A DNA stretch of 55,409 nt, taken from Verrucomicrobiota bacterium (GTDB lineage Bacteria; Verrucomicrobiota; Verrucomicrobiia; Chthoniobacterales; SZAS-18). Each line of letters begins with the position of its first letter. Position 1 is the first letter of the stretch. Both the position numbers and the translations under genes were made by a program. Shown one piece after another: positions 9,993 through 32,158 of this stretch. The DNA lies in NCBI GenBank assembly GCA_025353105.1, contig JANXRG010000004.1, positions 1 through 55,409 of the forward strand, given 5' to 3'. Below the pieces are notes generated by a model. It ran no database searches, was not told where the DNA came from, and saw only the letters and a program-made list of their open reading frames with translations.

Positions 9993-12563
<2,571 letters not shown>

Positions 12564-12657
12564 CCGCCCCCGACGCCGGAGTGCGCGCCCGGTACGTCGA
12601 AACCAAAGGAAGATCCGGCTCGCTAACGCGCCGGCGTCACGCGTAGAACTTCGCGCG

Positions 12658-13935: not shown

Positions 13936-14034
13936 CCGCCGGTCTGGCATGGGGGCGTGGCCCGCGGAAATTCTCTCTGCAAACGGGCGGCCCATGCGCA
14001 TATTCGGCGGCACCCGATTCCCCCTTTTCCCCTG

Positions 14035-15165: not shown

Positions 15166-17462
15166 CTTCACCGCCCCCCATTGACCTGCTGCATTCCGGT
15201 CCGCTCCGCGTCCACCTCATCGGGGTCGCCGGATCCGGCATGAGCGGGATCGCCGGGCTGCTGCTGGCGCTCGGTCACCGGGTCAGCGGCTCGGACAAGA
15301 CCGACTCGGGGGAAGTGGCGCGCCTGAAGACCGCCGGTCTCGTCTTCCACACCCCGCACCGTGCTGAGCTGGTGCACGACGCCGACCTCGTGATCTACTC
15401 GTCTGCCATCAAGCCTGGCAATCCGGCCTTTGACGAAGCGCAACGCCTGGCCAAGCCAATGATCCGTCGCGCGGATGCACTTGCGGCGATGCTGACCGGC
15501 AAGAAGGGAATCGTCATTGCCGGCATGCACGGCAAGACGACGACTGCCGCCATGGCTGCGCACGTGCTTCGCGCCGGGGGCCTGAGGCCCAGCCATTACG
15601 TGGGCGCGGAGATTCCGATTCTCGGCACGAACGCGCATTGGGAGCCCGACGGCGAACCGTTCGTCATCGAGGGCGACGAAAGCGATGGCACGCTGGCCCT
15701 GTATCATCCGGAGCAGGCGCTCGTCCTGAACATCGAGGCGGAGCATCTCGACTACTATCAGGACATCGCCGCGATCGAAGTCGTCTTCAACGCGCTGCTC
15801 GATCAGACGCACGGCCGGATTTTTTATTGTCGCGATGACGCGATCGCCACGCGACTATGCGAATCGCGCAGCGGCTCCATTTCCTATGGCTCTAATCCCG
15901 GCGCGGATTACCACAGCGACGCCCTGGTCATGGAGAATTTCCAGTCGTACTTCGACGTTTTCCAACGCGGGACAAAACTCGGCACCGCGGTCCTCAACGT
16001 CCCCGGCGCGCACAACGTGTGCAATGCGGTCGGAGTGGTTGCGCTGGCCTCGGAGTTGGGCATTCCGTTTCCCTGCATCGCCACCGCCCTCGAATCGTTT
16101 CGCGGTGCGCGGCGGCGTTTTGAGTTCAAGTTTCGCGGTCGCGAATTCGCCGTCGTCGATGACTACGCGCATCATCCCAGCGAGTTGAAGGCGACCCTTG
16201 CCACGGCCCGGGCCGGGCACCGCGGGCGCATCATTGCGCTGTTCCAGCCGCACCGTTACACGCGCACCCTGGCACTGCAGGAGGAATTCGGCCGCGCCTT
16301 TGACGATGCCAACATCGTCCTGATCTCCGACATCTACGCCGCCAGTGAACGTCCGATCGAGGGGGTGAGCGGGCAGTTGCTGGTGGACGCGTTGAAGCGG
16401 CACGGGCATCCCGACGCGACGTTCGAACCGATGGTCCGTCGGATGCCGGCGCGTCTCGGCCCGCGGCTTCAACCCGGGGACATGGTGCTCAGTCTTGGAG
16501 CCGGAAACATCCACGAGGCGGCGCGCCAACTTTCCGCCGACCTCGACCATCTCGAGGCGCTGCGGTCGGTCGCCGGCCCGGATGCGAGCATCACGCTTTA
16601 CGAGCCACTCGCGCGTCACACCACGCTGCGCGTCGGCGGTCCCGCGCGTTTTTGGTGCGAGCCTTCGACGGTTGACGCGTTCGCCAAATTTCTGCGTTAT
16701 GCGAAGAAGCACTCGTTGCCGGTGTTCGTCATTGGGCGCGGTTCGAATCTGCTGGTCCGCGACGGCGGAATCGACGGCTTGGTCATTCACCCCGGGGGCG
16801 GCGAGTTCGCGGCGTTGTCGGTCGAAGCGGCGACGCATGAGCTCACGGCGGGGGCCGGCGTGAAGTTCAAGCAGATCGCGACGGCCGCCGCCAAGTCAGG
16901 CACCGCGGGCTTTGAATGGATGGAAGGCATTCCCGGCGAAGTCGGCGGCAGCCTGCGCATGAACGCCGGCGCCATGGGTACCGAGACTTTTGATCAGGTT
17001 GTTTCCGTGCGTTACCTCGATGCGGACGGCCAGCTTCATGAGGTCGCGCCGAACGAGCTTGAGGTGCATTACCGCGACGTCGCCTCGCTCAGGACAAACT
17101 ACGTCGTCGGAGCCGTGTTTCGCGGACGCGCCGGCGATCCAGCCGCAATCGCGCGTTTGCTGGAGGAATCGATGCGCAAGCGCAAGACCAGCCAGCCCGT
17201 TGCGTCGAGCGCGGGTTGCATCTTCAAGAATCCGTCGAAGGAAATTCCGGCCGGAAAACTGATCCAGGAACTCGGGCTGAAGGACACGCGCGTGGGCGCC
17301 GCCCGCGTTTCCGAAGTGCACGGCAACTTCATCGTGAACGACGGCGGCGCGACCGCCGGCGATGTGCTTGAGCTCATCGCTCAAATCCAGGCGAAAGCCC
17401 GGCACGATCGCGGGATCGAATTGCAAACCGAGGTGCAAATTGTCGGAAGCGATGGAACATAG
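15162..17462 (+). CDS. murC/murB: MurC-MurB fusion (UDP-MurNAc-Ala ligase / UDP-MurNAc reductase)
   Basis: 766 residues encoding two consecutive peptidoglycan-precursor enzymes. Residues about 15-465 are MurC: nucleotide-sugar loop GVAGSGMSG at 21-29, ATP loop GMHGKTTT at 121-128, and DDYAHHPSE at 332-340. Residues about 475-766 are MurB: FAD-binding GRGSNLLV at 525-532, GEVGGSLRMNAGA near 592-604, catalytic Ser in SSAGCIFKNP near 682-691 and Glu in LQTEV near 757. MurB makes UDP-MurNAc and MurC adds L-Ala, so the fusion joins sequential steps in reverse order along the chain. The start is GTG 15162, overlapping the murG stop; a TTG at 15138 would add eight residues. Confidence 0.95.
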   Translation: MTSPPPIDLLHSGPLRVHLIGVAGSGMSGIAGLLLALGHRVSGSDKTDSGEVARLKTAGLVFHTPHRAELVHDADLVIYSSAIKPGNPAFDEAQRLAKPMIRRADALAAMLTGKKGIVIAGMHGKTTTAAMAAHVLRAGGLRPSHYVGAEIPILGTNAHWEPDGEPFVIEGDESDGTLALYHPEQALVLNIEAEHLDYYQDIAAIEVVFNALLDQTHGRIFYCRDDAIATRLCESRSGSISYGSNPGADYHSDALVMENFQSYFDVFQRGTKLGTAVLNVPGAHNVCNAVGVVALASELGIPFPCIATALESFRGARRRFEFKFRGREFAVVDDYAHHPSELKATLATARAGHRGRIIALFQPHRYTRTLALQEEFGRAFDDANIVLISDIYAASERPIEGVSGQLLVDALKRHGHPDATFEPMVRRMPARLGPRLQPGDMVLSLGAGNIHEAARQLSADLDHLEALRSVAGPDASITLYEPLARHTTLRVGGPARFWCEPSTVDAFAKFLRYAKKHSLPVFVIGRGSNLLVRDGGIDGLVIHPGGGEFAALSVEAATHELTAGAGVKFKQIATAAAKSGTAGFEWMEGIPGEVGGSLRMNAGAMGTETFDQVVSVRYLDADGQLHEVAPNELEVHYRDVASLRTNYVVGAVFRGRAGDPAAIARLLEESMRKRKTSQPVASSAGCIFKNPSKEIPAGKLIQELGLKDTRVGAARVSEVHGNFIVNDGGATAGDVLELIAQIQAKARHDRGIELQTEVQIVGSDGT

Positions 17463-17470
17463 GGAAAGCT

Positions 17471-18139
17471 GTGAGACGACTTGCTTTCCTGCTTGCCCTG
17501 CTGTTTGGCGGCCCATTTGTAGATGGGCGGGATTTATTGCAAAGGGATTTTCTCGCCACAATCTCGCCCGACCATCGCCGGACGCCGGCCAGAATGTCCG
17601 GGAAGGGCAGAGAACGCGCTTCTTCGCAGCCCGTTGCCTACCTGCAACCCGGCACGGTGGTCTATTACCAGGGACCGCTCGATGGCAAACCAGACAATGG
17701 AGGGTTTCTCGTTGTCATTCTAGCGAATGGATGGAGTGTTCTTATCGAGCGAAGCGCGCTGATCTTTCACCCGGACTGGCCGATTTCGCAGATGCAATTC
17801 GACCGTCGGAAATACTCCGCTAAAGCAATCCTTGGATGGGCTGACGAGATTCAGCGTTGTGACGCCCCTCGCGCTGAGACTGCGGTAGCGGGGGCAAGAT
17901 CGGTCGCCGCTCGCGCTGTTCGAGGTGAAAAGACTGCTCTTCGATCCATTTATTTTGAGTATTGGAGTGGTGACAGCGAAATCTACACTGAGTTTCAGTG
18001 GGCTCTCTTGCATGTCGTCGGAGATTCAGAATTCGCTTCGTTTGCGTCTTCGCTTTCCCCCGTTGAGAAGATGAACCTTCCGACAGTTTTCTTGAGAATC
18101 ATTGCAGCTTCCCAATCGCTGATAACGAGGCCTATCTGA
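17471..18139 (+). CDS. Small secreted protein of unknown function, possibly frameshifted
   Basis: 222 residues from a GTG at 17471. The N-terminus (RRLAFLLALLFGGPFVDG) looks like a signal peptide. No family recognised. Base composition toward the 3' end is visibly less GC-rich than in its neighbours. The frame stops at 18139, but the +1-type alternative frame continues without a stop to 18213 and reads as ordinary protein (YLKRHFPKTSAAWLIQ). Its stop would overlap an ATG at 18210. A missing T in the T4 run near 18087-18090 would join the two. The gene interrupts an otherwise conserved murC-murB/ddl order. Confidence 0.6.
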   Translation: MRRLAFLLALLFGGPFVDGRDLLQRDFLATISPDHRRTPARMSGKGRERASSQPVAYLQPGTVVYYQGPLDGKPDNGGFLVVILANGWSVLIERSALIFHPDWPISQMQFDRRKYSAKAILGWADEIQRCDAPRAETAVAGARSVAARAVRGEKTALRSIYFEYWSGDSEIYTEFQWALLHVVGDSEFASFASSLSPVEKMNLPTVFLRIIAASQSLITRPI

Positions 18140-18233
18140 AGAGACACTTTCCCAAGACCTCCGCTGCGTGGTTGATTCAGTCCCGGCCCGCTCGAATGTC
18201 TGCTGAACAATGACAACATTTTCGCTCGTCAAT

Positions 18234-19154
18234 ATGCATATCGCGCTCCTAACCGGCGGACCCGGATCCGAGCGCGAGGTGAGTTTGCGGTCGGGTGCGA
18301 ATGTCGCGAACGGGTTGCGCGGCGCGGGTGCCGTCGTCGCGGAAATTGACGTGCGCGGAGGCGACTTCGATCTCCCGCCGGAAACGGAATTCGCGTTCCT
18401 CATGATTCACGGAACGTTCGGCGAAGACGGCCAACTGCAGGCCGAACTCGAGCGGCGCGGTACCCCTTATTCCGGCGAGGATGTGCGGGGAAGCGAGGTC
18501 GCCTTCGACAAGATTCTCAGCAAGCGCGCGTTCGACGCGGCCGGGATTCCCACGCCGCGCTGGGAAGTCATCCATGCGGGAGAAACACCAAAGATGTCCG
18601 CGCCGCTCGTGATCAAGGCGCCCAAACAGGGCTCGAGCGTCGGGGTCTATCTCTGCCGGAAGCCGGAGGATGTCGCGCCGGCGCTGGCCAAGGTGATCGA
18701 GTTTGATGAAGAGATTCTCGTCGAGCAATTAATTAACGGCCTCGAGCTCACGGTTGGCGTGCTGGGTGATCTCGCGCTCCCCATCATCATGATCAAGGGC
18801 AGCTATGACTATGAGCGGAAGTACCCGTGGTCCGAGGCCGCGAAGAAGGCCAGGCAGTCGAACCCGCAGCAGGAGGAAGCGCTGCATTTTTGCCCGGCGC
18901 CCATTACCGCGGAGCAAACGCGCCTGGTCCAGAAGATGTCGCTCGACGCGCATCGCGCCCTGGGTCTCAAGACGTATTCGCGCGTGGATTTGCTGCTCGA
19001 TGCCGCGGGTCGCGCTTGGGTGCTCGAGGCGAATACCATCCCCGGGATGACCGAAAGCAGCCTGTTGCCGGAGGCGGCGCTGGTGGCGGGAATCACACTC
19101 CCGGACCTCGTCACTCGCATCGTCGAACTTTCCCTCGCGGCGCGACCCGCTTGA
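18234..19154 (+). CDS. ddl: D-alanine--D-alanine ligase
   Basis: 306 residues from the ATG at 18234 (MHIALLTGGPGSEREVSLRSG); an ATG at 18210 would add eight residues and would overlap the frameshifted upstream frame. An ATP-grasp enzyme that joins two D-Ala for the peptidoglycan pentapeptide. The conserved features are the N-terminal serine loop SEREVSL, ATP-binding VIKAPKQGSSVGV, and the metal-binding segment WVLEANTIPGMTESSLLPEA. It is slightly short relative to many Ddl proteins but complete. Confidence 0.95.
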   Translation: MHIALLTGGPGSEREVSLRSGANVANGLRGAGAVVAEIDVRGGDFDLPPETEFAFLMIHGTFGEDGQLQAELERRGTPYSGEDVRGSEVAFDKILSKRAFDAAGIPTPRWEVIHAGETPKMSAPLVIKAPKQGSSVGVYLCRKPEDVAPALAKVIEFDEEILVEQLINGLELTVGVLGDLALPIIMIKGSYDYERKYPWSEAAKKARQSNPQQEEALHFCPAPITAEQTRLVQKMSLDAHRALGLKTYSRVDLLLDAAGRAWVLEANTIPGMTESSLLPEAALVAGITLPDLVTRIVELSLAARPA

Positions 19155-19185
19155 ATTCTTCCCAGGATTCCGCTATCCGCACCTG

Positions 19186-20253
19186 ATGCCACCACCGCGC
19201 CAGCCCAACCGAGCAGGCAGCGGGAACTCGCGCGCCGGCTCCCCGGGGGCCCGCCGGCAGATCCTCAACGTCACCGCAAGGAAGGAACGTTTTGTCCAGC
19301 AACGCAAGAGCCGTGCGCTCGCGCGCCTTGCGGTGATGTTCCTCGGCCTCGCGCTGCTCATCGGCGCCGCCCTCGGCATCTATCATGTGAAGGACCGTTT
19401 TTTTCTCGAGAATCCGCACTACAACCTGCGCGACCTCGAAGTGAAGAGTGACGGCACGTTGCCGCAGGAAGTCATCTTCAAGACGGCCGGACTCCAGCCC
19501 GGCGTGAACCTCTTCAAATTGGATCTCGCGGACGCCGCCCGCCGGCTCGAGGCCCTTCCGCAGGTCGAGTCGGTGCGGCTCCAGCGCTCGTTTCCTTCGA
19601 CGGTGACGATTCACATTGTGGAGCGTAAACCGGTGGCCTGGGTTGTCGCAGAGGGCATCGAGCAATCCCGCGAGCAGCTGGTCCAGGCCACCGATTCATT
19701 TCTCACCGACCAGCGCGGCGTCCTGCTCCATCTCAAGCGGCAGCTTCCCGAATACGCTTTTCTTCCGATCATCCGGGGATGTTCCGCGAAGGATCTTTCG
19801 CCCGGACACACCGTCGAAGCCGAGGAGGTGCGCGCGGCTTTGGATCTCATCCGGGCCCATCGCAATTCCCTGATCGGGGCGCGTTTCGGCCTGCAGGAGG
19901 TGGACGTCTCCAAGCGGTTCGGGCTCGTCGCCACGGATCGAACGGGCCTGCAGGTGATCTTCGCACTGGATGACTTCGAAGGTCAGCTCAAGCGCTTGGA
20001 TGTGCTGCTCAATGAAATGGATCGGATCGGCCAGCATCCCACGACGATCAATTTACTGGTGCTCAAGAACACTCCCGTGACCCTCAAAGGCGATATGCCC
20101 CCCGAGCTCACCGCGTCACCCGCGCCCTCGCTGGAGAAATCGCCCACCTTGAAGCTAGGGGCCAAAGAACCCGGGAAGGGAAAATCACCGGCGCCCGACC
20201 CGAAACCGAACGAGGTTCCCGTCCGCCGGGCGATCCCTGTTCGCCCGAGCTGA
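19186..20253 (+). CDS. ftsQ: Cell division protein FtsQ/DivIB
   Basis: 355 residues. A basic cytoplasmic N-terminus (about 45 residues), one transmembrane helix (about 46-66), then a periplasmic POTRA domain (about 77-145) containing LRDLEVKSDGTLPQEVI and the conserved VESVRLQRSFPSTVTIHIVERKPVA segment, followed by the FtsQ beta domain and a Pro/Lys-rich tail of about 50 residues that is longer than in most FtsQ proteins. FtsQ links FtsA/FtsZ-side proteins with the FtsBL/FtsWI complex. It lies 31 bp after ddl. Confidence 0.88.
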   Translation: MPPPRQPNRAGSGNSRAGSPGARRQILNVTARKERFVQQRKSRALARLAVMFLGLALLIGAALGIYHVKDRFFLENPHYNLRDLEVKSDGTLPQEVIFKTAGLQPGVNLFKLDLADAARRLEALPQVESVRLQRSFPSTVTIHIVERKPVAWVVAEGIEQSREQLVQATDSFLTDQRGVLLHLKRQLPEYAFLPIIRGCSAKDLSPGHTVEAEEVRAALDLIRAHRNSLIGARFGLQEVDVSKRFGLVATDRTGLQVIFALDDFEGQLKRLDVLLNEMDRIGQHPTTINLLVLKNTPVTLKGDMPPELTASPAPSLEKSPTLKLGAKEPGKGKSPAPDPKPNEVPVRRAIPVRPS

Positions 20254-20325
20254 TCGATCGACGACAACAACCACGTGGTCATTTCCTTACCGGCACGATT
20301 TGTGCGGCCAATCCGCTTGCGTAAT

Positions 20326-20351
20326 CGCCACGCTGCGATTTCATCGTGGCG
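20326..20351 (+). promoter_or_regulatory. Hairpin overlapping the upstream ftsA start
   Basis: CGCCACG (20326-20332) and CGTGGCG (20345-20351) form a perfect 7-bp stem with a 12-nt loop. The stem covers the GTG at 20346 and ends nine bases before the ATG at 20361. It could affect ftsA translation or be incidental. Confidence 0.3.
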
Positions 20352-20360
20352 CTAACCGGT

Positions 20361-21578
20361 ATGGCCAAGAATCCCATCATCGTCGGTCTCGAAATCGGCA
20401 CCACGAAAGTCTGCGTGGTGGTGGCCGAAGCCGCGCCCGGCGACGAGACCCGGATTCTCTGCGTCGGCCAGGCCGATTCACGCGGGGTCCGCAAAGGCGA
20501 AATCGTCGATTTTGATGCGGCGCACGAGGCGTTGCGCGATGCCATCGCCGACGCCGAGTCGAAGAGCGATGTCACGATCCGAAGCGCCTACGTCGGCATC
20601 ACCGGCGGCCATGTCACCAGCCTGAACAACCGCGGCGTGGTCCATCTCCCGGGCGAGCGTAACGAGATTTCCGATGACGACGTCGGGGAGGTAAAACTGC
20701 GCGCCGGTGAGGTCAGCATCCCGACGAACAACGCGTTTCTACATAACTTCATCCAGCAATACCGGGTGGATGGCCGCGACGGCGTGATGAATCCCGTCGG
20801 CATGCTCGGCCATAAGATCGAGGCCGACTATCACGTCGTCCACGGGGTACGGAATCGAATCCAGAACACCATCCGGCTCGTGCGCGAAGTTCCTCTCGAG
20901 GTGGACGATGTCGTCTTCAGCGGTCTGGCTTCGGCGCTTGCGGTGCTCGACCGCGAACAGCGCGAGCGCGGCGCGCTCGTCATCGATATCGGCGGCGGCA
21001 CGACGGATTACGTCATCTACCGCGACGGCGCGGTGCACGACAGCGGATGCATCGCGGTCGGCGGTGATCACATCACGAACGACATCTCGATGGGGCTGCG
21101 CGTTCCGATGGCGAGGGCGGATCGGTTGAAAATCGAGGAGGGCGGCGCCGTGCTCGGCACCTGCATGCCGGACGAGAAAATCCACCTGCGCGGCGAGCCC
21201 GGCTTTGCCGCGCGGGACATCGAGCGCGAGATGCTGCACCAGGTGATTCACTACCGGCTCCGCGAAATCTTCGAGTTGCTGAAGAAGCGTTTCAATGACG
21301 AGCGTCACCTCGATTACCTCGGCGCCGGCGTTGTCCTAACGGGCGGCTCCAGCCAGATTCCCGGCATCCAGTATCTCGCCGAGGAGGTCTTCGGCATTCC
21401 CGTGCAGCCGGCGCAGTCGCCGCCGCTGAGCGGCCTGACCTCCGCGCTCGCGAATCCACAAATTTCGACGGCGCTCGGGCTGGTCGAATACGCCCGCCTC
21501 GTGCAGGATGAACATCCCACCGAGGGCTTCTGGCTGCGGATGAAGCATCGGTTCGCCCGCGCGCTCGGTTCGCGGTAA
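20361..21578 (+). CDS. ftsA: Cell division protein FtsA
   Basis: 405 residues from the ATG at 20361 (MAKNPIIVGLEIGTTKVC); an in-frame GTG at 20346 would add five. Actin-fold ATPase that tethers FtsZ to the membrane. Visible are phosphate-1 loop GLEIGTTKV, the ALAVLDREQRERGALVIDIGGGTTDY phosphate-2 region in shortened form DIGGGTTDY, and the adenosine motif LTGGSSQIPG. The C-terminus WLRMKHRFARALGSR is a basic amphipathic helix fitting the FtsA membrane-targeting sequence. It lies directly before ftsZ. Confidence 0.95.
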   Translation: MAKNPIIVGLEIGTTKVCVVVAEAAPGDETRILCVGQADSRGVRKGEIVDFDAAHEALRDAIADAESKSDVTIRSAYVGITGGHVTSLNNRGVVHLPGERNEISDDDVGEVKLRAGEVSIPTNNAFLHNFIQQYRVDGRDGVMNPVGMLGHKIEADYHVVHGVRNRIQNTIRLVREVPLEVDDVVFSGLASALAVLDREQRERGALVIDIGGGTTDYVIYRDGAVHDSGCIAVGGDHITNDISMGLRVPMARADRLKIEEGGAVLGTCMPDEKIHLRGEPGFAARDIEREMLHQVIHYRLREIFELLKKRFNDERHLDYLGAGVVLTGGSSQIPGIQYLAEEVFGIPVQPAQSPPLSGLTSALANPQISTALGLVEYARLVQDEHPTEGFWLRMKHRFARALGSR

Positions 21579-21589
21579 ACTCTTTCGCC

Positions 21590-22894
21590 ATGACGAATTC
21601 CCCGCTCCCCTCGACGAAGCCGGATCCCTCGGCCGATCGGATCAAGGTGAAAGTGGTCGGCATCGGCGGCGCCGGATCCAACGTGCTCGATCGCCTCGTG
21701 CTCGACGACGCCGTCGAAGTGGATCTCGTGTCTTGCAACACCGACGTGCAATCCCTGGCGAGCAGCGTCGCCAGCCAGAAGGTGCAGCTCGGCCGGACGC
21801 TTACCCGCGGTCTCGGCGCGGGCGGCGATCCGGAAATCGGGTTCGCCGCCGCGGAGGAGGCGGCCGGGGAAATTTCTGCCGCGATCGAGGGCACGCCGCT
21901 CGTGTTCATCGTGGCCGGCCTCGGCGGCGGCACCGGGTCCGGCGCCGCACCGCTCGTGGCAAAACTTGCGCGCGAACGCGGCTCATTGGTCCTCGCCTGC
22001 GTGACGCTGCCGTTTTCCTTCGAAGGCCGCCGCCGCCGCGAGCAGGCTCGCGAATCGCTGCGCGCCATCCAGACGTACGCCGACGCTGTCATCTGTTTTG
22101 AGAACGACCGCATGGGCGAAATCGTCCTGCCGACCGCCGGTGTTCATGACGCCTTTGGCCGGACGGATCAAGTCATCGGGCAATGCGTCCGATCGGTGAT
22201 CGATCTCGTTCAGCGCCGCGGCCTGATCCGGTTGGGATTCGATGATCTTCTCAGCGCGCTTCGCAATCACGATTCGCGTTGCCTGTTTGGTTACGCGGAA
22301 GCTGCGGGGCACGACCGCGCTGCGCTCGCGGCGGATGAGGCGCTGCGCAGTCCGTTGATGGATGGCGGCACCCTGCTGCCGCGCGTCGCCCACGTGCTGG
22401 TTAACATCACCGGTGGCCACGATCTCACGCTGGCGGAGATCCAATCGCTAATGCAGGCCTTGCATCACCGGATCGCGGAAAATGCGCAGGTGTTGTTCGG
22501 CGCGACGGTGGATTCGAAATTTAACGGGCGCCTCGGCGTGACCGTGATCGGTTCGCTGCCCGCGGGCGCCTTCCCGCCGGAAGAAACCGCGCCCGCCCCC
22601 GTCGTCCGGATTCCAGCCGCCGCGCCCACGGTCCCCCGCCCGGCTCCCGTCGCGCCCCGCGCCGCTCCACTGGAGCCGCCCCGCGCTCCGGAGAGATTTT
22701 CTCCTCCTGCGCCGGTACCCGCGCGGAACGATGCGGTCCGACCGGTCCCGCCCCGTGCGCCCGCGACCCCGCCGGAGCCGACCCCCGTACCGGAGCCGGT
22801 TTACCGCGGTCGATTCGAGCGCAGCGAACCAACTATTGTCGACGGCGAGGACCTCGACGTTCCCGCCTTTTTGCGGAAGGGCTTGAAGAAATAG
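21590..22894 (+). CDS. ftsZ: Cell division GTPase FtsZ, with altered T7 loop
   Basis: 434 residues. Tubulin-like GTPase that forms the Z ring. The nucleotide site is normal (GIGGAGSN near 24-31, tubulin signature GGGTGSG at 112-118). The T7 synergy loop, NVDFAD in E. coli, reads RLGFDD at 214-219: the Asn and the first Asp are replaced by Arg and Gly, while the second Asp (Asp219) is kept. A Pro-rich linker (about 325-415) leads to the conserved tail DLDVPAFLRKGLKK that binds FtsA. The gene starts 11 bp after ftsA. Divergence from typical FtsZ is consistent with Verrucomicrobiota. Confidence 0.95.
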   Translation: MTNSPLPSTKPDPSADRIKVKVVGIGGAGSNVLDRLVLDDAVEVDLVSCNTDVQSLASSVASQKVQLGRTLTRGLGAGGDPEIGFAAAEEAAGEISAAIEGTPLVFIVAGLGGGTGSGAAPLVAKLARERGSLVLACVTLPFSFEGRRRREQARESLRAIQTYADAVICFENDRMGEIVLPTAGVHDAFGRTDQVIGQCVRSVIDLVQRRGLIRLGFDDLLSALRNHDSRCLFGYAEAAGHDRAALAADEALRSPLMDGGTLLPRVAHVLVNITGGHDLTLAEIQSLMQALHHRIAENAQVLFGATVDSKFNGRLGVTVIGSLPAGAFPPEETAPAPVVRIPAAAPTVPRPAPVAPRAAPLEPPRAPERFSPPAPVPARNDAVRPVPPRAPATPPEPTPVPEPVYRGRFERSEPTIVDGEDLDVPAFLRKGLKK

Positions 22895-24191: not shown

Positions 24192-24221
24192 CCCCGTCAG
24201 CAGAAATGTTGACGGGGTTTT
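24192..24221 (+). terminator. Rho-independent terminator
   Basis: CCCCGTCA (24192-24199) pairs perfectly with TGACGGGG (24210-24217) around a 10-nt loop and is followed by TTTT. It closes the division cluster transcript and separates it from the UBact-proteasome genes. Confidence 0.8.
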
Positions 24222-24359: not shown

Positions 24360-24539
24360 ATGCCTGAACGCACCCAAAAACCAAATGTTCCGGCCCCGTG
24401 GAATCCGCAGTCAGGTGACGGCGGAGATGGACCGAAGGCTCCCGACATCACCAAGCCGGACACGCGCAAGCTCCTCGAGCGCATGCGGCGCGTCGATCCC
24501 GACCAATCGAAGCGCTATCGCCAGCGGACGGGCCAATAG
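24360..24539 (+). CDS. ubact: UBact, prokaryotic ubiquitin-like protein modifier
   Basis: 59 residues from the ATG at 24360. The sequence is disordered-looking, rich in Pro, Gly, Asp, Lys and Arg, and ends RQRTGQ. The segment GPKAPDITKPDTRKLL followed by ERMRRVDPDQSKRYRQ matches my recollection of the UBact family, the Pup-like modifier reported in Nitrospirae, Verrucomicrobia and other Gram-negative phyla. The C-terminal Gln would have to be deamidated to Glu before ligation to lysines, as for Pup. An in-frame ATG at 24297 would add 21 unlike residues. It is 81 bp before prcB, and the context makes the call strong. Confidence 0.88.
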   Translation: MPERTQKPNVPAPWNPQSGDGGDGPKAPDITKPDTRKLLERMRRVDPDQSKRYRQRTGQ

Positions 24540-24620
24540 GGGTCGACTGCGCGTTGAACGCCCTTTGGTCGGCGGGGATGACTTGCCCTGTCCGCGGAGG
24601 GCCGCAATACTTTGCGACGA

Positions 24621-25436
24621 ATGATGCCCCGTCCCGCCAGCGAGTCCGTCGCCGGAGCCATGCTTGGGTTTCGCGACTTTCCGGAACTTCTCCAGGCTCG
24701 TGGCCTGCTGCCGGTGGCATCGCCGGCAGTGGGCGGCGCGAACCAACCGACCCAGACGCAGGCCACCACGATCCTCGCGTTCAAGTTCGCTGGGGGCGTC
24801 CTGGTTGCAGGTGATCGCCGCGCGACCTCCGGCAACGTGATGGTCTACGACCGCGCCGACAAGGTGATCGAGATCGATGATCACTCGTTGATGGCGATCG
24901 CGGGGTCTCCCGCCGCTGCCTGGGAGATGGCACGCGTCCTGTCCCACTCATTCCAATTCTACCGCCGCACGCAGCTCCAGGAGATGACGGTATCCGCCAA
25001 GGTGCGCGCGCTCTCCAAGTTGTTGCGGGATAATTTCGGCCTCGCGATGCAAGGGGTCGGTGCCGTGGTGCCCATCTTTGCAACGTTCGATGCCGCCCAC
25101 CCTTTCCCCGGAGGAAAGCTGTTTTTCTACGACGTCATGGGCGCGCAATTCGAGGCGGCGGACTATGCGACGACCGGTTCCGGATCGCCCGCGATGCGTG
25201 GGGTGCTTTACCACGAGAACACCTACGGCCGTGCGCCGCTGCGCTCCCTCGACCGCGATTCGGCCATCGGCCTGGCCTTGCGCGCGCTCGACACGGCGGC
25301 GGAATCCGACACGGCCACCGGCGGCCTCGACCCGCGTGGAAAAATCTTTCCCGTCATCAAACTCGTGACCGGGGCCGGCGTGATTTCTGTCGCGGACTCC
25401 GACATGACCCGGATGCTTCCGACTCGCAACGAATGA
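24621..25436 (+). CDS. prcB: 20S proteasome beta subunit
   Basis: 271 residues from the ATG at 24621 (a second ATG follows at once; TTG 24612 is also open). A propeptide of about 48 residues ends QTQA, and cleavage would expose the nucleophile Thr49 in TTILAFKF. Counting from that Thr, Asp17 (AGDRRAT) and Lys33 are in the canonical positions, and the GSGS and ATGGLD segments supply the remaining catalytic residues. It should therefore be an active N-terminal-nucleophile protease. The sequence resembles actinobacterial PrcB. It lies 12 bp before prcA in the usual prcB-prcA order. Confidence 0.96.
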   Translation: MMPRPASESVAGAMLGFRDFPELLQARGLLPVASPAVGGANQPTQTQATTILAFKFAGGVLVAGDRRATSGNVMVYDRADKVIEIDDHSLMAIAGSPAAAWEMARVLSHSFQFYRRTQLQEMTVSAKVRALSKLLRDNFGLAMQGVGAVVPIFATFDAAHPFPGGKLFFYDVMGAQFEAADYATTGSGSPAMRGVLYHENTYGRAPLRSLDRDSAIGLALRALDTAAESDTATGGLDPRGKIFPVIKLVTGAGVISVADSDMTRMLPTRNE

Positions 25437-25448
25437 TGTCGCACGCCT

Positions 25449-26237
25449 ATGTTTGAAGAGCCGTTTCGTTTTGTGGAGGCGATCGCCAATCGTCGCGAGT
25501 ACATCGAGAATGAACTCGCAACGGGAAGCCCGATCACCGCGCTCGCATACGATCGCGGCATCGTCCTCTTCACGATGGGACGGGACCGGCAAAAAATCTT
25601 TGAGGTGTATGATCGCATTGCGCTCGGCGCGCTCGGTCACCCTGGCGACATCGAGCGCCTGCGCATGCTGGCCATCGAGCTCGCGAGCACCGAGGGGTTT
25701 ACGCGCTCCGCGGCGGACGTGTCGCTACGCCGTCTCGTCAATTACTCGCTCAGCCCGGGCCTGAAGGCCGCATTCGAGCAGATTTATGGTCCGCCGTATC
25801 TTGCCCGCCTGCTGTTTGCCGAACTCGGCGCGTCGCCCTCGACGGATCAATTTGTCCGCGTCGATTTTGACGGCGCCATTCATTCGAATGGCAACCCCGC
25901 GCTCAAGACCCGCCCGGGCTTCGGCGTGCTCAGCGGCACCAAACGCTCGGAGACGCGCATGAATGCCTTCCTCACGCAAGAGCACCGCTCTGACCTTTCG
26001 CTGACGGAGGCCGTTCGCGTTGCGCGAGACGCGTGGGTCGTCGGGCATCTCGCGTTGATCGCAAAGGACGAGTTCAATCCCGACGCGCCGTTTCCCACCG
26101 CGACGGAGATTCACGCGGCGCAGACCACCGTGCTGACCCAAGCTGTCTTCGAAGCGGCGCTTCTCGATCGGACGCGGCCCGACGGCCCAGCCTATCGAAC
26201 GCTCGATGCGGCGGAGCTCGCCGGGTTGCAAGGCTGA
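25449..26237 (+). CDS. prcA: 20S proteasome alpha subunit
   Basis: 262 residues, an Ntn-fold without a catalytic Thr. The N-terminal helix FRFVEAIANRREYIEN, which gates the pore, is followed by SPITALAYDRGIVLFTMG, equivalent to the first strands of actinobacterial PrcA, and by KIFEVYDRIALGALGH. The seven-membered alpha rings cap the beta rings and dock the ATPase. The C-terminus (LDAAELAGLQG) is shorter than in mycobacterial PrcA. It follows prcB by 12 bp, and a membrane protein gene starts 19 bp after it. Confidence 0.95.
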   Translation: MFEEPFRFVEAIANRREYIENELATGSPITALAYDRGIVLFTMGRDRQKIFEVYDRIALGALGHPGDIERLRMLAIELASTEGFTRSAADVSLRRLVNYSLSPGLKAAFEQIYGPPYLARLLFAELGASPSTDQFVRVDFDGAIHSNGNPALKTRPGFGVLSGTKRSETRMNAFLTQEHRSDLSLTEAVRVARDAWVVGHLALIAKDEFNPDAPFPTATEIHAAQTTVLTQAVFEAALLDRTRPDGPAYRTLDAAELAGLQG

Positions 26238-26256
26238 CGGCGTCCCCCCCGACCCG

Positions 26257-26886
26257 ATGAACGGTGCGTCTCGCTCCACGGTTGGCGCGCGTGTGCTGGT
26301 CGCGCTCGGCCTGTGGTTGGCAATCGCAACCGTACTTTCCACCCTTGGCGCGTGGGAGCGGATTCGGATTCCAATGCCCGTGGTGGTCCCGGCGCTGGTC
26401 GGCATCCTGCTGGGCGTCATCGCGTTGAACGCGCGGGTCCGGGTGTGGGTTTATGCGCTCGATCCGCGCTGGCTGGTAGCCCTTCATCTCGTGCGCTTTG
26501 TCGGCTTTCTCTTTCTCGTCATGTATCAACGCGGGGAGCTGCCGTGGGCCTTCGCGGTTCCCGGTGGCTGGGGTGACATCGTCGTCGGCTGCACGGCGGC
26601 GGTGCTACTGGTTGCGGTCCTGCCAGTGCGTTCGCGAACTTCGTGGCGGCTCCTGCTCATCTGGAACCTCGCCGGACTCACGGACATCCTTTTCGTGGTG
26701 AGCACCGCGTTGCGGCTGTTCCTCTCGGACCCGCCGTCGATGAGCGCGCTTCTGCGATTGCCGCTCAGTCTCTTACCAGCATTCTTTGTCCCGTTGATCA
26801 TTGTTTCCCACCTGATTCTTTTTGTCTGGCTTAAGCACCATCGGGGCGACGGAAATTCGAATGCTTTCGCCGACGCGCCGTTCTAA
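26257..26886 (+). CDS. Polytopic membrane protein of unknown function
   Basis: 209 residues from the ATG at 26257; the open frame upstream overlaps prcA and is not supported. About six transmembrane helices (near 10-30, 38-58, 70-89, 105-123, 130-152 and 170-195). A conserved-looking loop ELPWAFAVPGGWGDI sits between helices 3 and 4. I recognise no family. It lies 19 bp after prcA and 24 bp before the next gene, so it is probably co-transcribed with the proteasome genes. Confidence 0.75.
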   Translation: MNGASRSTVGARVLVALGLWLAIATVLSTLGAWERIRIPMPVVVPALVGILLGVIALNARVRVWVYALDPRWLVALHLVRFVGFLFLVMYQRGELPWAFAVPGGWGDIVVGCTAAVLLVAVLPVRSRTSWRLLLIWNLAGLTDILFVVSTALRLFLSDPPSMSALLRLPLSLLPAFFVPLIIVSHLILFVWLKHHRGDGNSNAFADAPF

Positions 26887-26910
26887 GATAAGACCGTACC
26901 TTTCTTGCCC

Positions 26911-27750
26911 ATGAAACGACTTCCCACGCTACTGCTCCTCTGCGCCACTTTTCCGCTTCTCCTGCCCGCCGATGACGACACCAAGCAGGTGCAGCAGGCT
27001 CTGAAGACCCAGGGATTCTATTACGGCGACGTCGACGGCGCGCCCAGCGAAGAGACCACCGAAGCAATCCGGAGGTTCCAGATTCGCAACGGGCTTCTCG
27101 TGACGGGAAAACCCGACAACGAAACCCGCAAGGCCCTCGTCACGGGCGGCGAGGCGACGACGCCGTCGCAATCTCCAGCCGTGGAACCGCCGGGCATTCC
27201 GCAGTCACCTGCGGCTGCGCAACCCCTTCTTCCGCCAAGCGAAATCCAGGTTCCCACGGCCAGACCCCCGTCCGCGAAGCGCCCCGATCTGCGCGCCGAT
27301 CCGTCGCAAACAGCGCCAGCACCGCGCAATCCGGGTTCCTCGATCCAGGATGCCTCCGTGACCGATGGTACCACAAGTTATCGCGGCGGAAGCTCCATCT
27401 TCAACGGCGGACCGTTCGCCGGAGCGCCGCCCTTCGTGCAAACCAGCGTTCTCGGGCAGACGCAAGCAATGCTGTCCCGCGAGGGATTTTACAACGGGCC
27501 GGTCGACGGCCTGCCCGGTCAACGGACGGCGGAAGCGCTGCTCGCCTATCAAGCCGCGTATGGTCTTCCGCGCTCCGGACGACTCGATGCCAACACGGTC
27601 CGGGCTCTCGGCATCGCCCCGGTCGCGGAAGCCCGCGCACCGCGCCCGTCGAGGCCCGCCCGCCCGAGATATTATGAGCCGCCTGCCCCGCGCCAGCAGG
27701 GCTCCGGCGCGTACGAGGGCCGCATCGTGCCCGAGACGCGGCCACGCTGA
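26911..27750 (+). CDS. Secreted protein with two peptidoglycan-binding domains
   Basis: 279 residues from the ATG at 26911. A signal peptide (KRLPTLLLLCATFPLLLPAD) is followed by two PG_binding_1-type modules: one near 24-75 (VQQALKTQGFYYGDVDGAPS then AIRRFQIRNGL) and one near 180-235 (TQAMLSREGFYNGPVDGLPG then ALLAYQAAYGL). A Pro-rich linker separates them and the C-terminus is basic and low complexity. No hydrolase domain is visible. It would sit in the periplasm bound to peptidoglycan. It is the last + strand gene of the proteasome group before a convergent gene. Confidence 0.8.
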   Translation: MKRLPTLLLLCATFPLLLPADDDTKQVQQALKTQGFYYGDVDGAPSEETTEAIRRFQIRNGLLVTGKPDNETRKALVTGGEATTPSQSPAVEPPGIPQSPAAAQPLLPPSEIQVPTARPPSAKRPDLRADPSQTAPAPRNPGSSIQDASVTDGTTSYRGGSSIFNGGPFAGAPPFVQTSVLGQTQAMLSREGFYNGPVDGLPGQRTAEALLAYQAAYGLPRSGRLDANTVRALGIAPVAEARAPRPSRPARPRYYEPPAPRQQGSGAYEGRIVPETRPR

Positions 27751-27762
27751 TTTCCCCGCGCG

Positions 27763-28611
27763 TCAGTGGCCGCTGGCCACCCGCGTCACGTTGTCCAGCT
27801 CGAGAAAGACGGAGCCGACAAACACCTGCGACTGCACGCGTAGAATCTGCCGCGTGGCGTCGTCGGAAATCCAGATCGTCGCGCTGCGGAACCGCTTGTT
27901 GGGCACGAGCGAACCGTCGTCCTTCACCCTTTGAATCGAATCAACCGATATCCGAATCGCTCGAAACTTCCCGGCGCGCATCGAAATCTCCTCGCGGTTG
28001 CGCACCGTCACCGTCATGAGATAGGGCACACTTGGCGACATCACCGCCACGGTCCTCGTCTCGCCGTTGCCGAGTGACAGGCTCCGCAGCAGGAGAAAAG
28101 TGCTCATGAAATCCTGCAGTGCCATCGAATCGAATCGCTTGGTTTCCGTCCGCGGAGCGCCGGCCCCCGATTTCGAGACGATCGTGCGTGTGCGATCCGC
28201 GCCGTCCGCGTCGAACCGCACCGATTCCCGGAGGGTCCGATCGGACCGCTCCTCCGTCTGGTCGATTCGGATGGGACGCAGGCGCGAGGCATTTACCGTC
28301 GAGAGAATCGTGGCGTCGAGCGGCCAGAGCGTGCGGGCGGTTCCCACCGTGGTGGTGTCCGCCCGAAATTCATACGTGTCGGCCTGCGGTCGCTTGATCA
28401 CCATCTCCGCGCGCGCCGCGGTGATGCCGCCCCATCCGATTCGGTAGGTCGCGCGAAAAGGCGTCGCGAGAGCCGGAAAATCGCCGGGTTTGACCGCGCT
28501 GACCTGATCCTCCCATCCGGCACCGGACACCAAGGTCGGGCCGAAGACTCCAAGAACGAGCGCCGCTGCGCAAATCATGCCGCCGGGATTGTTGTAATTG
28601 GAGAAAAGCAT
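27763..28611 (-). CDS. DUF3108 family protein
   Basis: 282 residues. The N-terminal hydrophobic segment (MICAAALVLGVFGPTLVSG) acts as a signal peptide; an ATG at 28578 is an alternative start that begins just there. The body has the DUF3108 pattern, beginning near FRATYRIGWGGITAARAEM and continuing with beta strands (YEFRADTTTVGTARTLWPLD). The family is periplasmic or surface-exposed and of unknown function. It is convergent with the peptidoglycan-binding gene and divergent from the phosphodiesterase gene across 61 bp. Confidence 0.75.
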   Translation of the reverse strand: MLFSNYNNPGGMICAAALVLGVFGPTLVSGAGWEDQVSAVKPGDFPALATPFRATYRIGWGGITAARAEMVIKRPQADTYEFRADTTTVGTARTLWPLDATILSTVNASRLRPIRIDQTEERSDRTLRESVRFDADGADRTRTIVSKSGAGAPRTETKRFDSMALQDFMSTFLLLRSLSLGNGETRTVAVMSPSVPYLMTVTVRNREEISMRAGKFRAIRISVDSIQRVKDDGSLVPNKRFRSATIWISDDATRQILRVQSQVFVGSVFLELDNVTRVASGH

Positions 28612-28641
28612 TAAGGATGTCGACTCGCTGCAGGTCGCCCT

Positions 28642-28660
28642 TTGACATACGACAGGTCAA
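28642..28660. promoter_or_regulatory. Operator-like palindrome in a divergent promoter region
   Basis: TTGAC and GTCAA flank a 9-bp spacer between the divergent DUF3108 and phosphodiesterase genes. TTGACA on the + strand could also be a -35 element, but no convincing -10 follows and the ATG at 28673 is too close. Confidence 0.25.
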
Positions 28661-28672
28661 ACTTATTCGAAA

Positions 28673-30019
28673 ATGACGAAAAATGCCTCGCGCAGTTTGT
28701 CGATGTTCTGGGTAATCTCGACGATTGTTGTCGCCGTGGTTGCAGGGCTGGCGGCAGCCAAGTGGATGTACCAGTACTCGTTGCAGGCGGCCGCGCGCAC
28801 CACGGTCGTCTGGATCAGCATCGATGGAATGCGAGGCGACTACGTGCAGCGCGGCGACTTCCCCTTTTTCGTCCGGTTGCGACGGGAGGCCGCCACGACC
28901 GACAAACTCCGTCCCGTCTTTCCGTCCATCACCTTTCCCAGTCATTGCTCCGAAGCCACGGGCGCGACCGTCGAGAAGCATGGCATTACGGCCAACGCGT
29001 TTTATGACGCGGCCACCAAGACCCAGTACAGCTATCCGAACGACTCATCGCTGCTGCAGGCCGAACCCATCTGGCTCACCGCGCAGCGCCAGGGGGTGCG
29101 GACGGCGGTCCTCGATTGGCCGCTTTCCTTTGCGCAGAAAGGCCCGATTCGAACCGAAATCTTTGATGAAAAATTTGATTCCGCCATGCCCGACGAACAG
29201 CGCCTGAACCGGCTCCTCGACGCCTGGTCCGCCTCGCTTGCAAAGGCCGACCCTGTCCCTCTCCACCTGCTCATGGGCTACGTCATCGCGACGGACAAGC
29301 CCGGCCACAACAACGGTCCGGATTCCCCCGAAATACTGCAGGCGATGATCACGCTCGATGCGCAACTCGCGAAGTTCAGCGAGCGCGCGGTGGAATTATG
29401 GAAGCGACAGCGCAAGACACCCGAGGACCGGCTGTTTTTCGTGTTCTCGACCGATCACGGCATGTCGACGGTCAAGACGCTGGTGAGTCTGCCGCGCCTG
29501 CTCAATGTCGCCCGACGCGACCCCGAGATTCGCCTGAGCACGACGGGAAATGTCGGACACGTGTTTCTCGACGGGGTGAAATACCCGCGCGGCAGTGAGG
29601 CGCGCGAGGCGAAACTGCGCGAGTTCCGCGCCACGATGATTGCGGCGGGTCCCGATTTCCAGGCGTTCAAGCGCGAAGACATGCCCGCGGCCTGGGGCTA
29701 CGCCCATCCCACTCGCTGTGGCGATCTCATCATCATCCTGCCGCGTGGATACACATTCGGGTGGGCAGAAAACGCGGCCGCCATCTTGGAGGTCGGAACG
29801 AGCGCCACGGGCCCGAACGGCATGCATGGTTATGACCCGGCGACGAACCCCGAAATGATGGGCTTCTTTGCCATTTGGGAATTCGGTAAAATTAAACCAA
29901 TGGACCTCGGTGCCGTCGGGTGGGACCAGCTTCACCCCACCGTCGCAAAGCTTCTTGGGATCAACCCATCCCCGACCGCGACCGGGACACCGCTTGCCAT
30001 CGCCGCGTTGGCCAAGTGA
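28673..30019 (+). CDS. Type I phosphodiesterase / nucleotide pyrophosphatase
   Basis: 448 residues, alkaline-phosphatase superfamily. An N-terminal membrane anchor or signal sequence (about residues 11-29) places the enzyme in the periplasm. The metal site begins at VVWISIDGMRGDY, the nucleophile Thr lies in FPSITFPSHCSEATG, and STDHGM and HGYDP supply further metal ligands. These enzymes hydrolyse nucleotide pyrophosphates or phosphodiesters. The exact substrate is unknown. It is convergent with the pafA-like gene with only 12 bp between the stops. Confidence 0.85.
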   Translation: MTKNASRSLSMFWVISTIVVAVVAGLAAAKWMYQYSLQAAARTTVVWISIDGMRGDYVQRGDFPFFVRLRREAATTDKLRPVFPSITFPSHCSEATGATVEKHGITANAFYDAATKTQYSYPNDSSLLQAEPIWLTAQRQGVRTAVLDWPLSFAQKGPIRTEIFDEKFDSAMPDEQRLNRLLDAWSASLAKADPVPLHLLMGYVIATDKPGHNNGPDSPEILQAMITLDAQLAKFSERAVELWKRQRKTPEDRLFFVFSTDHGMSTVKTLVSLPRLLNVARRDPEIRLSTTGNVGHVFLDGVKYPRGSEAREAKLREFRATMIAAGPDFQAFKREDMPAAWGYAHPTRCGDLIIILPRGYTFGWAENAAAILEVGTSATGPNGMHGYDPATNPEMMGFFAIWEFGKIKPMDLGAVGWDQLHPTVAKLLGINPSPTATGTPLAIAALAK

Positions 30020-30031
30020 TCGGCTGGCTCG

Positions 30032-31444
30032 TCACCCCGCGCCCGCACCCGTCAGAAATTGCCGCATCTCCGAGTCGTAGGTGTTGAACGGATCGCCCAT
30101 CGAGATGTGACTCCCGCCTTCCAGCGTGATGGCGTCCCAGTTGATGACGTACGGCCGCGTCTCACCCATGAACTGCTCGACCGCGATGCCGCGGCCCCAG
30201 GCGCGCGTGTCCGCCGGCGGCGTGCGCATCGCCGACGGTCGACGCGCGCGCGCGTTGAATTCGCCGATGGTTTTTGAAGGCGGCTCGACCCCGTGAAACA
30301 AACCCGTGGCGGGATTGAGATTGTGGTATTCCAAATCGAGACTCTGCAACCATGGGTCTGTCCACTCAAGATTCTCGGCCGCGCGAAATGTCTCCAGCAG
30401 CCAGAATTTGGTAATCCAATCGACGCCGCCAATCAGCGCATTCGGTTTTGCGCGCAGGCAATCGAGCGTAAAGCACCATTGGTTGAGCAACCAGTCCGTC
30501 TCCGCGTCCTGACCGCGCAGATGCGCGTTCGCCGACGCGTGGAACGCCCGTTGCACGTCCAACGCGTCGCAACTTCGTCCATCGGCGAGCGTCACGGGCC
30601 ATTGCCGGGTCGCGTCGCGCGAGATGTCGCGCGTGGCTTGCACGGCGTCCGCGAGTGCCCAACCCCCCGGCAACCTCCCCTCCTCCAGCAGCGTGAGCAC
30701 CAGCGCCGTCGTCCCGCCCTTGAGCGCGCAGGCGAACGGGCTCATGTTTGAGTCGCCAATCAGCAGATGCAGCCGGCGAAACTTGCGGTGGTCCGCGAGC
30801 GGCTCGTCGCGGGCGTTGATGATCGCCCGGTTGAACTGCACCCACTGGTAGATGTCGTTGACGATGTGGTCCGCGCGCTGGCTGATCTGAAAGATCACGT
30901 CCTCGTCGGCCCGCGTCGGTTCGAAATCGAAGGCGAGCGGATGAGCGACGCCGATCCGACCGGTCCCGCAAAAAATCTGCCGCGTGGCCAGGAAGCAGAG
31001 CAGCGCGGCCAGCGCGTCCGGCGTGAACTCCGCGTCCCGCCGCATCAAATAATTTTCATGACAGCCAAAGGTCGCGCCGGTGTGGTGATCGACGTTGTTC
31101 TTGATCAGCGAGACCCGATCCGCCACGCCAAGTTCCTCCAGCGCACCCTGCACGAGCGTGTCCCCAGCCAGATCGTACGCGACCAGATCTTCGATCGTCC
31201 GGCATTCGGGCGACGAATACTCGAGGTGTCCCATGTCGAGGTAGAGTCGGCCCCCATTGAGGAGGTAGCCGCCGTTGCCAGGCGGCTCCTCGTAATCGCG
31301 ATAATGCAAATCAATCGCGCCCGCGCTGGCCTTCCGAAAGACGTGGTTCTTTACCCGCACTGGCCAGGCGTCCGGTCCGCCCGGCGAGCGATCATCCGCG
31401 ACGAGACATCCGTATTCCGTCTCGAGGCCGACGATGCGATTCAT
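30032..31444 (-). CDS. pafA: PafA/Dop family ligase acting on UBact
   Basis: 470 residues, a glutamine-synthetase-fold ATP enzyme. Motifs: GLETEYG at 6-12 with two Glu for Mg-ATP, the catalytic Asp70 in NGGRLYLD, EYSSPEC, KNNVDHHTGATFGCHENYL near 115-132, RQIFCGTGRIG, and INARDEPLADHRKFRRLH near 209-226. The C-terminal GDPFNTYDSEM segment resembles PafA rather than Dop. The segment between GLETEYG and NGGRLYLD is about 50 residues, in my recollection longer than in actinobacterial PafA and shorter than in Dop, so ligase, deamidase or both remain possible. It starts 9 bp after the zinc-ribbon gene, so they share an operon. Confidence 0.9.
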   Translation of the reverse strand: MNRIVGLETEYGCLVADDRSPGGPDAWPVRVKNHVFRKASAGAIDLHYRDYEEPPGNGGYLLNGGRLYLDMGHLEYSSPECRTIEDLVAYDLAGDTLVQGALEELGVADRVSLIKNNVDHHTGATFGCHENYLMRRDAEFTPDALAALLCFLATRQIFCGTGRIGVAHPLAFDFEPTRADEDVIFQISQRADHIVNDIYQWVQFNRAIINARDEPLADHRKFRRLHLLIGDSNMSPFACALKGGTTALVLTLLEEGRLPGGWALADAVQATRDISRDATRQWPVTLADGRSCDALDVQRAFHASANAHLRGQDAETDWLLNQWCFTLDCLRAKPNALIGGVDWITKFWLLETFRAAENLEWTDPWLQSLDLEYHNLNPATGLFHGVEPPSKTIGEFNARARRPSAMRTPPADTRAWGRGIAVEQFMGETRPYVINWDAITLEGGSHISMGDPFNTYDSEMRQFLTGAGAG

Positions 31445-31453
31445 GATTTGGCG

Positions 31454-32158
31454 CTAAATCACGCGATAGAGGACGCGCCCGCAATTCGGGCATTGGATCA
31501 ACTCCTCCTGCGCGCGGACAAGGCTGACCGTCGTGCCCGGTGCCTTCATGTGGCACCCCTGACAAATTTCATGTTCGAGCGGCACGATGGCGACGTCGCC
31601 CTTGCTCCTGAGGATGCGTTCGTAGAGCGAAAGGGTGTCGGGATCGACCGCGCCGGCGAGCGTCCCGCGCTCGGCCACGAGCTCCGCGAGACGCTTGGTC
31701 AGGTTGGCGGCCTTCTCGTCGAGGTCCTTGAGCTGCCGCGCGATGGATTCATTGGCTTGCTTCATGTCCGCCTCGCCCGCCTTGACCTCCGCGCCCAGTT
31801 TCTCCGCCTCCTCCATCAGGTCGAGTTCGCGATCCTCGATTGCGCGGATCTCGGTCTCGGCCCCTTGAATCTCGTGCAAGAGGGCTTGGAATTCCTCGTT
31901 CTTGCGGGTCTGCATCTGCTGCGTGCGGTAGCGCGCAATCGAGTCGCGCTTGACCCCCGCCTCGACCTCGAGTTTGCGGCGTTCGACTTCATTGTGTTTC
32001 GCCTTTTCGCGCAGGGCCTCGAAGGCCGCTTTGACGGACGCGCGTTTCGACTCCATCGCGGCGCGCTCCGTGGGAACCGCCTTGTCCTGCGCTTGATGAG
32101 CCTTGATGCGCTGGTCGCGATCCTGCACGACGAGCAGTTGTTCGATGAGTGGATTCAT
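31454..32158 (-). CDS. Coiled-coil protein with C4 zinc ribbon (COG1579 type)
   Basis: 234 residues. Residues about 1-175 form a long antiparallel coiled coil; the C-terminus has a four-Cys zinc ribbon (ICQGCHMK near 198-205 and CPNCGRV near 223-229). The layout fits the COG1579/zf-RING_7 family, which includes proteins proposed to act as nucleic-acid or protein adaptors; function is not firmly known. It is directly upstream of the pafA-like gene (9 bp), and so may work with conjugation or simply be co-transcribed. A terminator lies before its start, after the aldolase gene. Confidence 0.85.
   Translation of the reverse strand: MNPLIEQLLVVQDRDQRIKAHQAQDKAVPTERAAMESKRASVKAAFEALREKAKHNEVERRKLEVEAGVKRDSIARYRTQQMQTRKNEEFQALLHEIQGAETEIRAIEDRELDLMEEAEKLGAEVKAGEADMKQANESIARQLKDLDEKAANLTKRLAELVAERGTLAGAVDPDTLSLYERILRSKGDVAIVPLEHEICQGCHMKAPGTTVSLVRAQEELIQCPNCGRVLYRVI

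Follow-up and report, generated by a model that had tools for sequence, protein, structure and literature searches.

A UBact–proteasome gene set in two pieces in a Chthoniobacterales (Verrucomicrobiota) genome, with a possible tyrosine-free docking of its ATPase

The window analyzed here is a stretch of 55,409 nucleotides (contig JANXRG010000004.1, assembly GCA_025353105.1) from a bacterial draft genome of 3.72 Mb (121 contigs, 97.6% complete). It carries genes of a UBact–proteasome system, comprising the protein modifier UBact, both subunits of a 20S proteasome, and a gene of the Pup ligase family. A preliminary description, made from the sequence alone, had placed this locus in a Gram-negative, non-actinobacterial host, which agrees with the relatives of the locus, since these identify the host as a member of the Chthoniobacterales in the phylum Verrucomicrobiota. 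The genes in question are the following:

24360..24539, + strand: UBact modifier, 59 residues (NF033388, 5.9e-24; PF20513, 2e-21)
24612..25436, + strand: prcB, 20S beta subunit with propeptide (TIGR03690, 168 bits; best PDB match Rhodococcus/Mycobacterium tuberculosis PrcB, 1.6e-32)
25449..26237, + strand: prcA, 20S alpha subunit (TIGR03691, 78 bits; M. tuberculosis PrcA, 1.3e-13)
30032..31444, - strand: predicted PafA-type UBact ligase (PF03136, 415.8 bits, cut-off 25)

The first three genes form a compact operon, with gaps of 72 bases between UBact and prcB and 12 bases between prcB and prcA, and lie where the preliminary description had put them. That description had also assigned the modifier to the UBact family, and a profile search supports this: the 59-residue product scores 84.1 bits against the UBact equivalog model of NCBIfam (NF033388, cut-off 35) and 75.9 bits against Pfam PF20513 (cut-off 27.8). 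The Pup model gave no match to the modifier at E ≤ 1, leaving the UBact model as the only one that matches, and the modifier ends in TGQ rather than GG[EQ]. Among PDB sequences no relative was found, the best match (E 0.21) being an unrelated protein. UBact starts with ATG at 24360 and is present as a single copy in a genome-wide search.

In a scan of the sequence collection, 325 UBact loci were confirmed, and the 80 best were retained for comparison. By title, all of these 80 belong to Verrucomicrobiota, except that one is labeled only “PVC group,” and the closest named loci come from Spartobacteria/Chthoniobacterales. Start codon and C-terminus are kept among the relatives. The RQRTGQ ending that had been read from the window is confirmed (RYRQRTGQ, the Gln form), and the pattern [RK]QRTG[QE] closes all 80 distinct UBact sequences. 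Because the terminal residue is Gln in 63 of these and Glu in the other 17, a deamidation step by Dop would be needed in the window strain and would be dispensable in some relatives. Almost all of the 80 other loci have prcB and prcA after UBact, with exceptions mostly at contig ends, and such recurrence argues that the adjacency is not due to chance. Weak UBact matches in two genomes (G099 and G230) that lack any member of the Pup ligase family were set aside as chance. As a separate observation, G292 carries a second, divergent UBact paralogue (L238:7543-7782) that ends in RSGQ and has no adjoining prcB or prcA.

The start codon of prcB is uncertain and could be TTG at 24612 or an ATG downstream. 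Mature PrcB would begin with TTILAFKF, after a propeptide ending in QTQA, and alignment with the M. tuberculosis and Rhodococcus proteins shows that Thr1, Asp17, and Lys33 are all retained, as had been claimed for the catalytic residues. The residue preceding Thr1 is Ala in the window, whereas actinobacterial PrcB has Gly; Ala or Ser occupies this position in 50 of 52 sequences, the remaining two having been shifted by the search pattern. PrcA is only about 20% identical to its M. tuberculosis counterpart. Of the structural models suggested at the outset, that of PrcA, of medium confidence (mean predicted local distance difference test score, pLDDT, 69), had M. tuberculosis PrcA as its top Foldseek match (7.7e-9); that of the ligase was not usable, as discussed below.

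The gene at 30032..31444 lies about 4 kb downstream of the operon on the opposite strand. The preliminary description had called it PafA/Dop; its place and strand stand, and the assignment can be narrowed to the ligase type as opposed to the depupylase. The catalytic Asp70 is embedded in RLYLDMGHLEY. In the alignment the protein lacks the Dop-loop, and in an unrooted tree it falls outside the Dop clade with 95/94 support. The Leu preceding the catalytic Asp, the Gly following it, and a His at position 25 of the alpha-loop are PafA-like, whereas a Ser at position 13 and a Pro at position 15, also close to that Asp, resemble Dop. The protein does not reach the cut-off of the PafA equivalog model TIGR03686 (316 versus 551 bits), and its best PDB matches are Dop and not PafA (244 versus 205 bits). 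From the absence of a Dop-loop, the position outside the Dop clade, and the identity of the other family member in the genome as Dop (see below), we infer that this gene is the ligase, an assignment reached by elimination together with residue features.

The alpha-loop of this putative ligase is rebuilt (DHIVNDIYQWVQFNRAIINARDEP). Of the residues reported as PafA-specific in this loop (His, Trp, Glu, Gly, Ser, Ser, Ala, Arg, Ser; PMC7947786, table 1), only the first His is kept. The loop has a motif of its own (DHIVNDIYQWVQFNRA), in which WVQFNRA is near-invariant: 16 of 17 additional genomes of the order share it, as does another family of the class. Since in PafA the alpha-loop controls how the enzyme contacts its targets (PMC7947786), the target choice of the UBact ligase may differ from that of PafA. 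In one relative, G290, pafA (L236:6376-7802) spans two overlapping frames, which reflects either a frameshift or a sequencing error.

No ring ATPase of the ARC/Mpa type is encoded within the window, as had been noted before. A search of the genome located an ARC gene on C101, directly followed by a separate Dop gene:

C101:50043-51791: ARC/Mpa ATPase (443.9 bits to TIGR03689, pup_AAA, below the equivalog cut-off of 504.75)
C101:51802-53328 (approximate): Dop, directly downstream of ARC (398 bits to Dop structures)

ARC aligns with the M. tuberculosis Mpa structure 7px9 over residues 73–565 (335 bits) and is thus near full-length, with coiled coil, OB, AAA, and beta-grasp regions. Dop has an intact Dop-loop and clusters with the structurally solved Dops in the tree. 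No third Pup ligase family gene was found in the genome, which has exactly two members of the family. A system without ARC or Dop was considered and rejected, both having been found on C101. The preliminary description had named a lack of ARC/Mpa throughout the genome, combined with loss of PrcB activity, as an outcome that would speak against it, and the ARC gene on C101 removes this objection. With these two genes supplying the parts absent from the window, the predicted six-gene set of UBact, ligase, Dop, ARC, PrcA, and PrcB is complete and split over two places.

The same two-gene Pup ligase set occurs in nearly all relatives. Co-occurrence was assessed in 147 genomes of the order Chthoniobacterales, of which 59 have UBact above the cut-off, 57 have ARC, and 60 have the Pup ligase family. 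UBact and the ligase family occur together in 58 genomes, alone in 1 and 2, respectively, and are both absent from 86 (Fisher test 2e-37, a value inflated by shared descent among the genomes); for UBact and ARC the corresponding numbers are 55, 4 and 2, and 86. UBact, ARC, and the ligase family are clearly gained and lost together. In another family of the same class, probably Methylacidiphilaceae (genomes of 2.2–2.5 Mb), the genes are contiguous over approximately 8 kb in the order arc-dop-ubact-prcB-prcA-pafA, which matches the order of published pup loci (PMC3511204). Within the order of the window, ARC and Dop are separated from UBact-prcB-prcA, and pafA lies apart or 2–6 kb away on either side. 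One genome of 96% completeness (G306, L237) has UBact, prcB, and prcA and no match to ARC, PafA, or Dop, pointing to a lost or missing half.

We also compared the C-terminus of ARC with the pocket of PrcA that would receive it, using ARC and PrcA sets drawn from overlapping, nonidentical lists of Verrucomicrobiota genomes. All known 20S caps are said to use a hydrophobic-Tyr-X (HbYX) end (PMC11475706). In M. tuberculosis complexes, the tyrosine of Mpa or PafE bonds with PrcA Arg26 or Glu119, the terminal carboxylate bonds with Lys52, and Asp144 holds the tail backbone; degradation driven by PafE requires both Arg26 and Lys52 (PMC9599533). The ARC encoded on C101 ends in RGAVI. A GQYL/HbYX-type motif is absent from all 42 distinct ARC tails, a set that covers both the order and the other family and in which every tail ends in V/I-V/I, whereas two actinobacterial ARCs run through the same script as a control end in NTGQYL. 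The two terminal positions have entropies of 0.53 and 0.75 bits, compared with 2.4–3.4 bits at positions -3 to -16. In M. tuberculosis numbering, the PrcA of the window has Thr in place of Arg26 and Leu in place of Glu119 and retains Lys52 and Asp144. Among 77 distinct PrcA sequences, Lys52 and Asp144 are present in all, Arg26 in none, and position 119 is always Leu; Rhodococcus PrcA, as read from the alignment, has Arg and Glu at the equivalent positions.

Since both partners of the tyrosine are gone, the partner of the carboxylate is invariant, and the tail itself lacks tyrosine, it is suggestive that tail and pocket have changed in a matching way, pointing to proteasome docking that does not depend on HbYX. 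We give roughly even chances to the proposal that Verrucomicrobiota UBact proteasomes dock their ATPase by V/I-V/I-COO⁻, with the gate opened via a Lys52 salt bridge, and that this coupled change of motor and core extends across the order and into a further family of its class. No report of HbYX-free docking or of a V/I-V/I tail was found in the openly searchable literature, which is a weak sign of novelty, most subscription journals lying outside it.

Taken together, the locus very probably belongs to a complete UBact–proteasome system of a Chthoniobacterales genome, present in two pieces. How it would work can be proposed by homology to PafA, Dop, Mpa, and PrcAB of M. tuberculosis and Corynebacterium glutamicum, from which conjugation, deamidation, degradation, and docking are all derived. 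UBact would be made with a C-terminal Gln, which Dop would deamidate to Glu. The PafA-type ligase of the window would then phosphorylate this Glu with ATP and couple UBact to a lysine of the target. ARC would bind the UBact portion by its N-terminal coiled coil, thread the target, and feed it into the PrcA/PrcB barrel for cleavage by Thr1 of PrcB, and Dop may also be able to remove the tag. In this scheme, ARC would sit on the PrcA ring via its V/I-V/I C-terminus, carried on a variable linker, with the carboxylate meeting the invariant Lys of PrcA.

Several observations weigh against this interpretation. The unrooted tree allows the window ligase to be called “not Dop,” and its status as a true PafA orthologue or as a deep third branch changes with the placement of the root; midpoint rooting of this tree, which has no outgroup, places it outside both PafA and Dop. 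Few of the published PafA-specific residues are matched, and the AlphaFold model of the ligase has a pLDDT of 47, too low to show whether the alpha-loop is a helix, as in PafA, or a loop, as in Dop. Autocatalytic maturation of PrcB is assumed, with Ala instead of Gly before Thr1. Given the overall divergence of PrcA, loss of Arg26 and Glu119 could be drift unlinked to the ARC tail, and Lys52 and Asp144 may have been kept for other reasons.

Some of these points feed the idea that the gene at 30032..31444 encodes another Dop-like hydrolase, or a member of a third branch that has no ligase activity, with the true ligase encoded elsewhere. Its closer PDB match to Dop, the Ser and Pro near the catalytic Asp, and an alpha-loop unlike that of PafA would fit such a role, which is nonetheless highly improbable: the product lacks the Dop-loop, splits from all Dops, and has PafA-like residues flanking the catalytic Asp and at alpha-loop position 25, and the only other family member in the genome is a clear Dop, a pairing that recurs in nearly all relatives. 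It is also quite improbable, if a shade less so, that UBact, ligase, and Dop serve as a regulatory modification without degradation, the proteasome and ARC handling mainly other substrates or the coupling having been lost. The missing GQYL/HbYX motif and the PrcA pocket without Arg26 and Glu119 are compatible with lost coupling, and some actinobacteria have kept pupylation without a proteasome (PMC3511204). Against this stand the operon with prcB and prcA at nearly every UBact locus, the joint gain and loss of UBact, ARC, and the ligase, the intact catalytic residues of PrcB, and an ARC tail that shows no decay, its two terminal residues being tightly conserved.

A further alternative concerns the docking step only. 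Hydrophobic C-termini can act as degrons, and it is conceivable that the V/I-V/I tail serves as a degradation signal at the C-terminus or is bound by some other partner, with docking left to the beta-grasp domain alone. This domain is retained in the ARC sequence and touches the alpha-ring in Mpa (PMC9599533). We consider this alternative unlikely, although clearly less so than the two above, because the changes in tail and pocket fit each other, both tyrosine partners being lost while Lys52 is kept in every sequence, and because insertion peptides usually combine a fixed C-terminus with a variable linker.

Two further features flank these genes:

24192..24221, + strand: intrinsic terminator (11-bp stem, GAAA loop, TTTT; fold -20.8 kcal/mol)
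31454..32158, - strand: CdsZ-like coiled-coil/zinc-ribbon protein (PF24481, PF02591)

The terminator ends the gene upstream of the UBact operon, which therefore probably starts with its own promoter. Directly upstream lies a dcw cluster (9993-22894) with genes for a ClpC-like ATPase, murG, a fused murC-murB, ddl, ftsQ, ftsA, and an FtsZ with a long proline-rich tail. That the UBact operon is part of this ftsA-ftsZ cluster was rejected, given the intervening terminator and the finding that none of the 80 other UBact loci has ftsZ or ftsA nearby; the dcw-UBact adjacency is absent from all of them. The CdsZ-like gene immediately precedes pafA, on the same strand and with a gap of 9 bp. This pairing is found in eight relatives (L066, L224, L225, L226, L229, L230, L231, and L232) and not in others, and the CdsZ-like product may work together with the ligase. 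The preliminary description had treated 24360-32158 as a single locus, which holds for UBact, prcB, prcA, and the ligase; the span also includes unrelated genes at 26206-30019, for a membrane protein, a peptidoglycan-binding protein, a DUF3108 protein, and a type I phosphodiesterase. Downstream of prcA, both in the window (26905-28611) and in many relatives of the order, lie a gene with PG_binding_1 and, convergent to it, one with DUF3108. DUF3108 is present in 46 of 82 stretches compared, and this conserved neighborhood has no evident link to the proteasome.

Lehmann et al. reportedly counted Verrucomicrobia among UBact hosts in 2017. UBact systems in Verrucomicrobiota are already published, and the present locus is one more member. 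The name dates from that year (Lehmann et al., BBRC 483:946, as cited in PMC12751074); a Pup-like protein in Methylacidiphilum had been described in 2008, with a Chthoniobacter flavus sequence in the PafA alignment (PMC2588565), and verrucomicrobial 20S subunits were noted in 2017 (PMC5666114). The openly searchable literature contains only passing mentions of UBact. The system shares with that of Lehmann et al. the modifier family (NF033388, PF20513) and the partners (PafA-type ligase, Dop, ARC, PrcA, and PrcB), differing by the split over two places and the inversion of the ligase relative to UBact, and by nothing further in gene content. By host, the subunits of the window belong to the Gram-negative 20S cluster of armatimonadetes, nitrospirae, and verrucomicrobia, whose alpha and beta subunits stand apart from those of actinobacteria; docking pocket and ATPase tail are not the subject of that account in its accessible part (PMC5666114).

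With the actinobacterial Pup system of M. tuberculosis, the set has in common the same six functions, the same gene order in the contiguous relatives, and a Dop and an ARC that are clearly homologous with all main domains. It differs in a modifier that the Pup model does not match and that ends in TG[QE] instead of GG[QE], in the V/I-V/I end of ARC where actinobacteria have GQYL, in a PrcA without Arg26 and Glu119, in Ala or Ser instead of Gly before Thr1 of PrcB, and in the rebuilt alpha-loop of the ligase. Experiments on prokaryotic protein tagging of this type are, to our knowledge, almost confined to actinobacterial Pup, and we are not aware of any that tested UBact conjugation biochemically. 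The group to which the window belongs offers hundreds of UBact loci and clear predictions, namely deamidation of the terminal Gln and a ligase with its own substrate loop. The ARC tail departs from the hydrophobic-Tyr-X rule stated for known 20S caps (PMC11475706) and, if it docks, would be a minimal, tyrosine-free gate-opening peptide.

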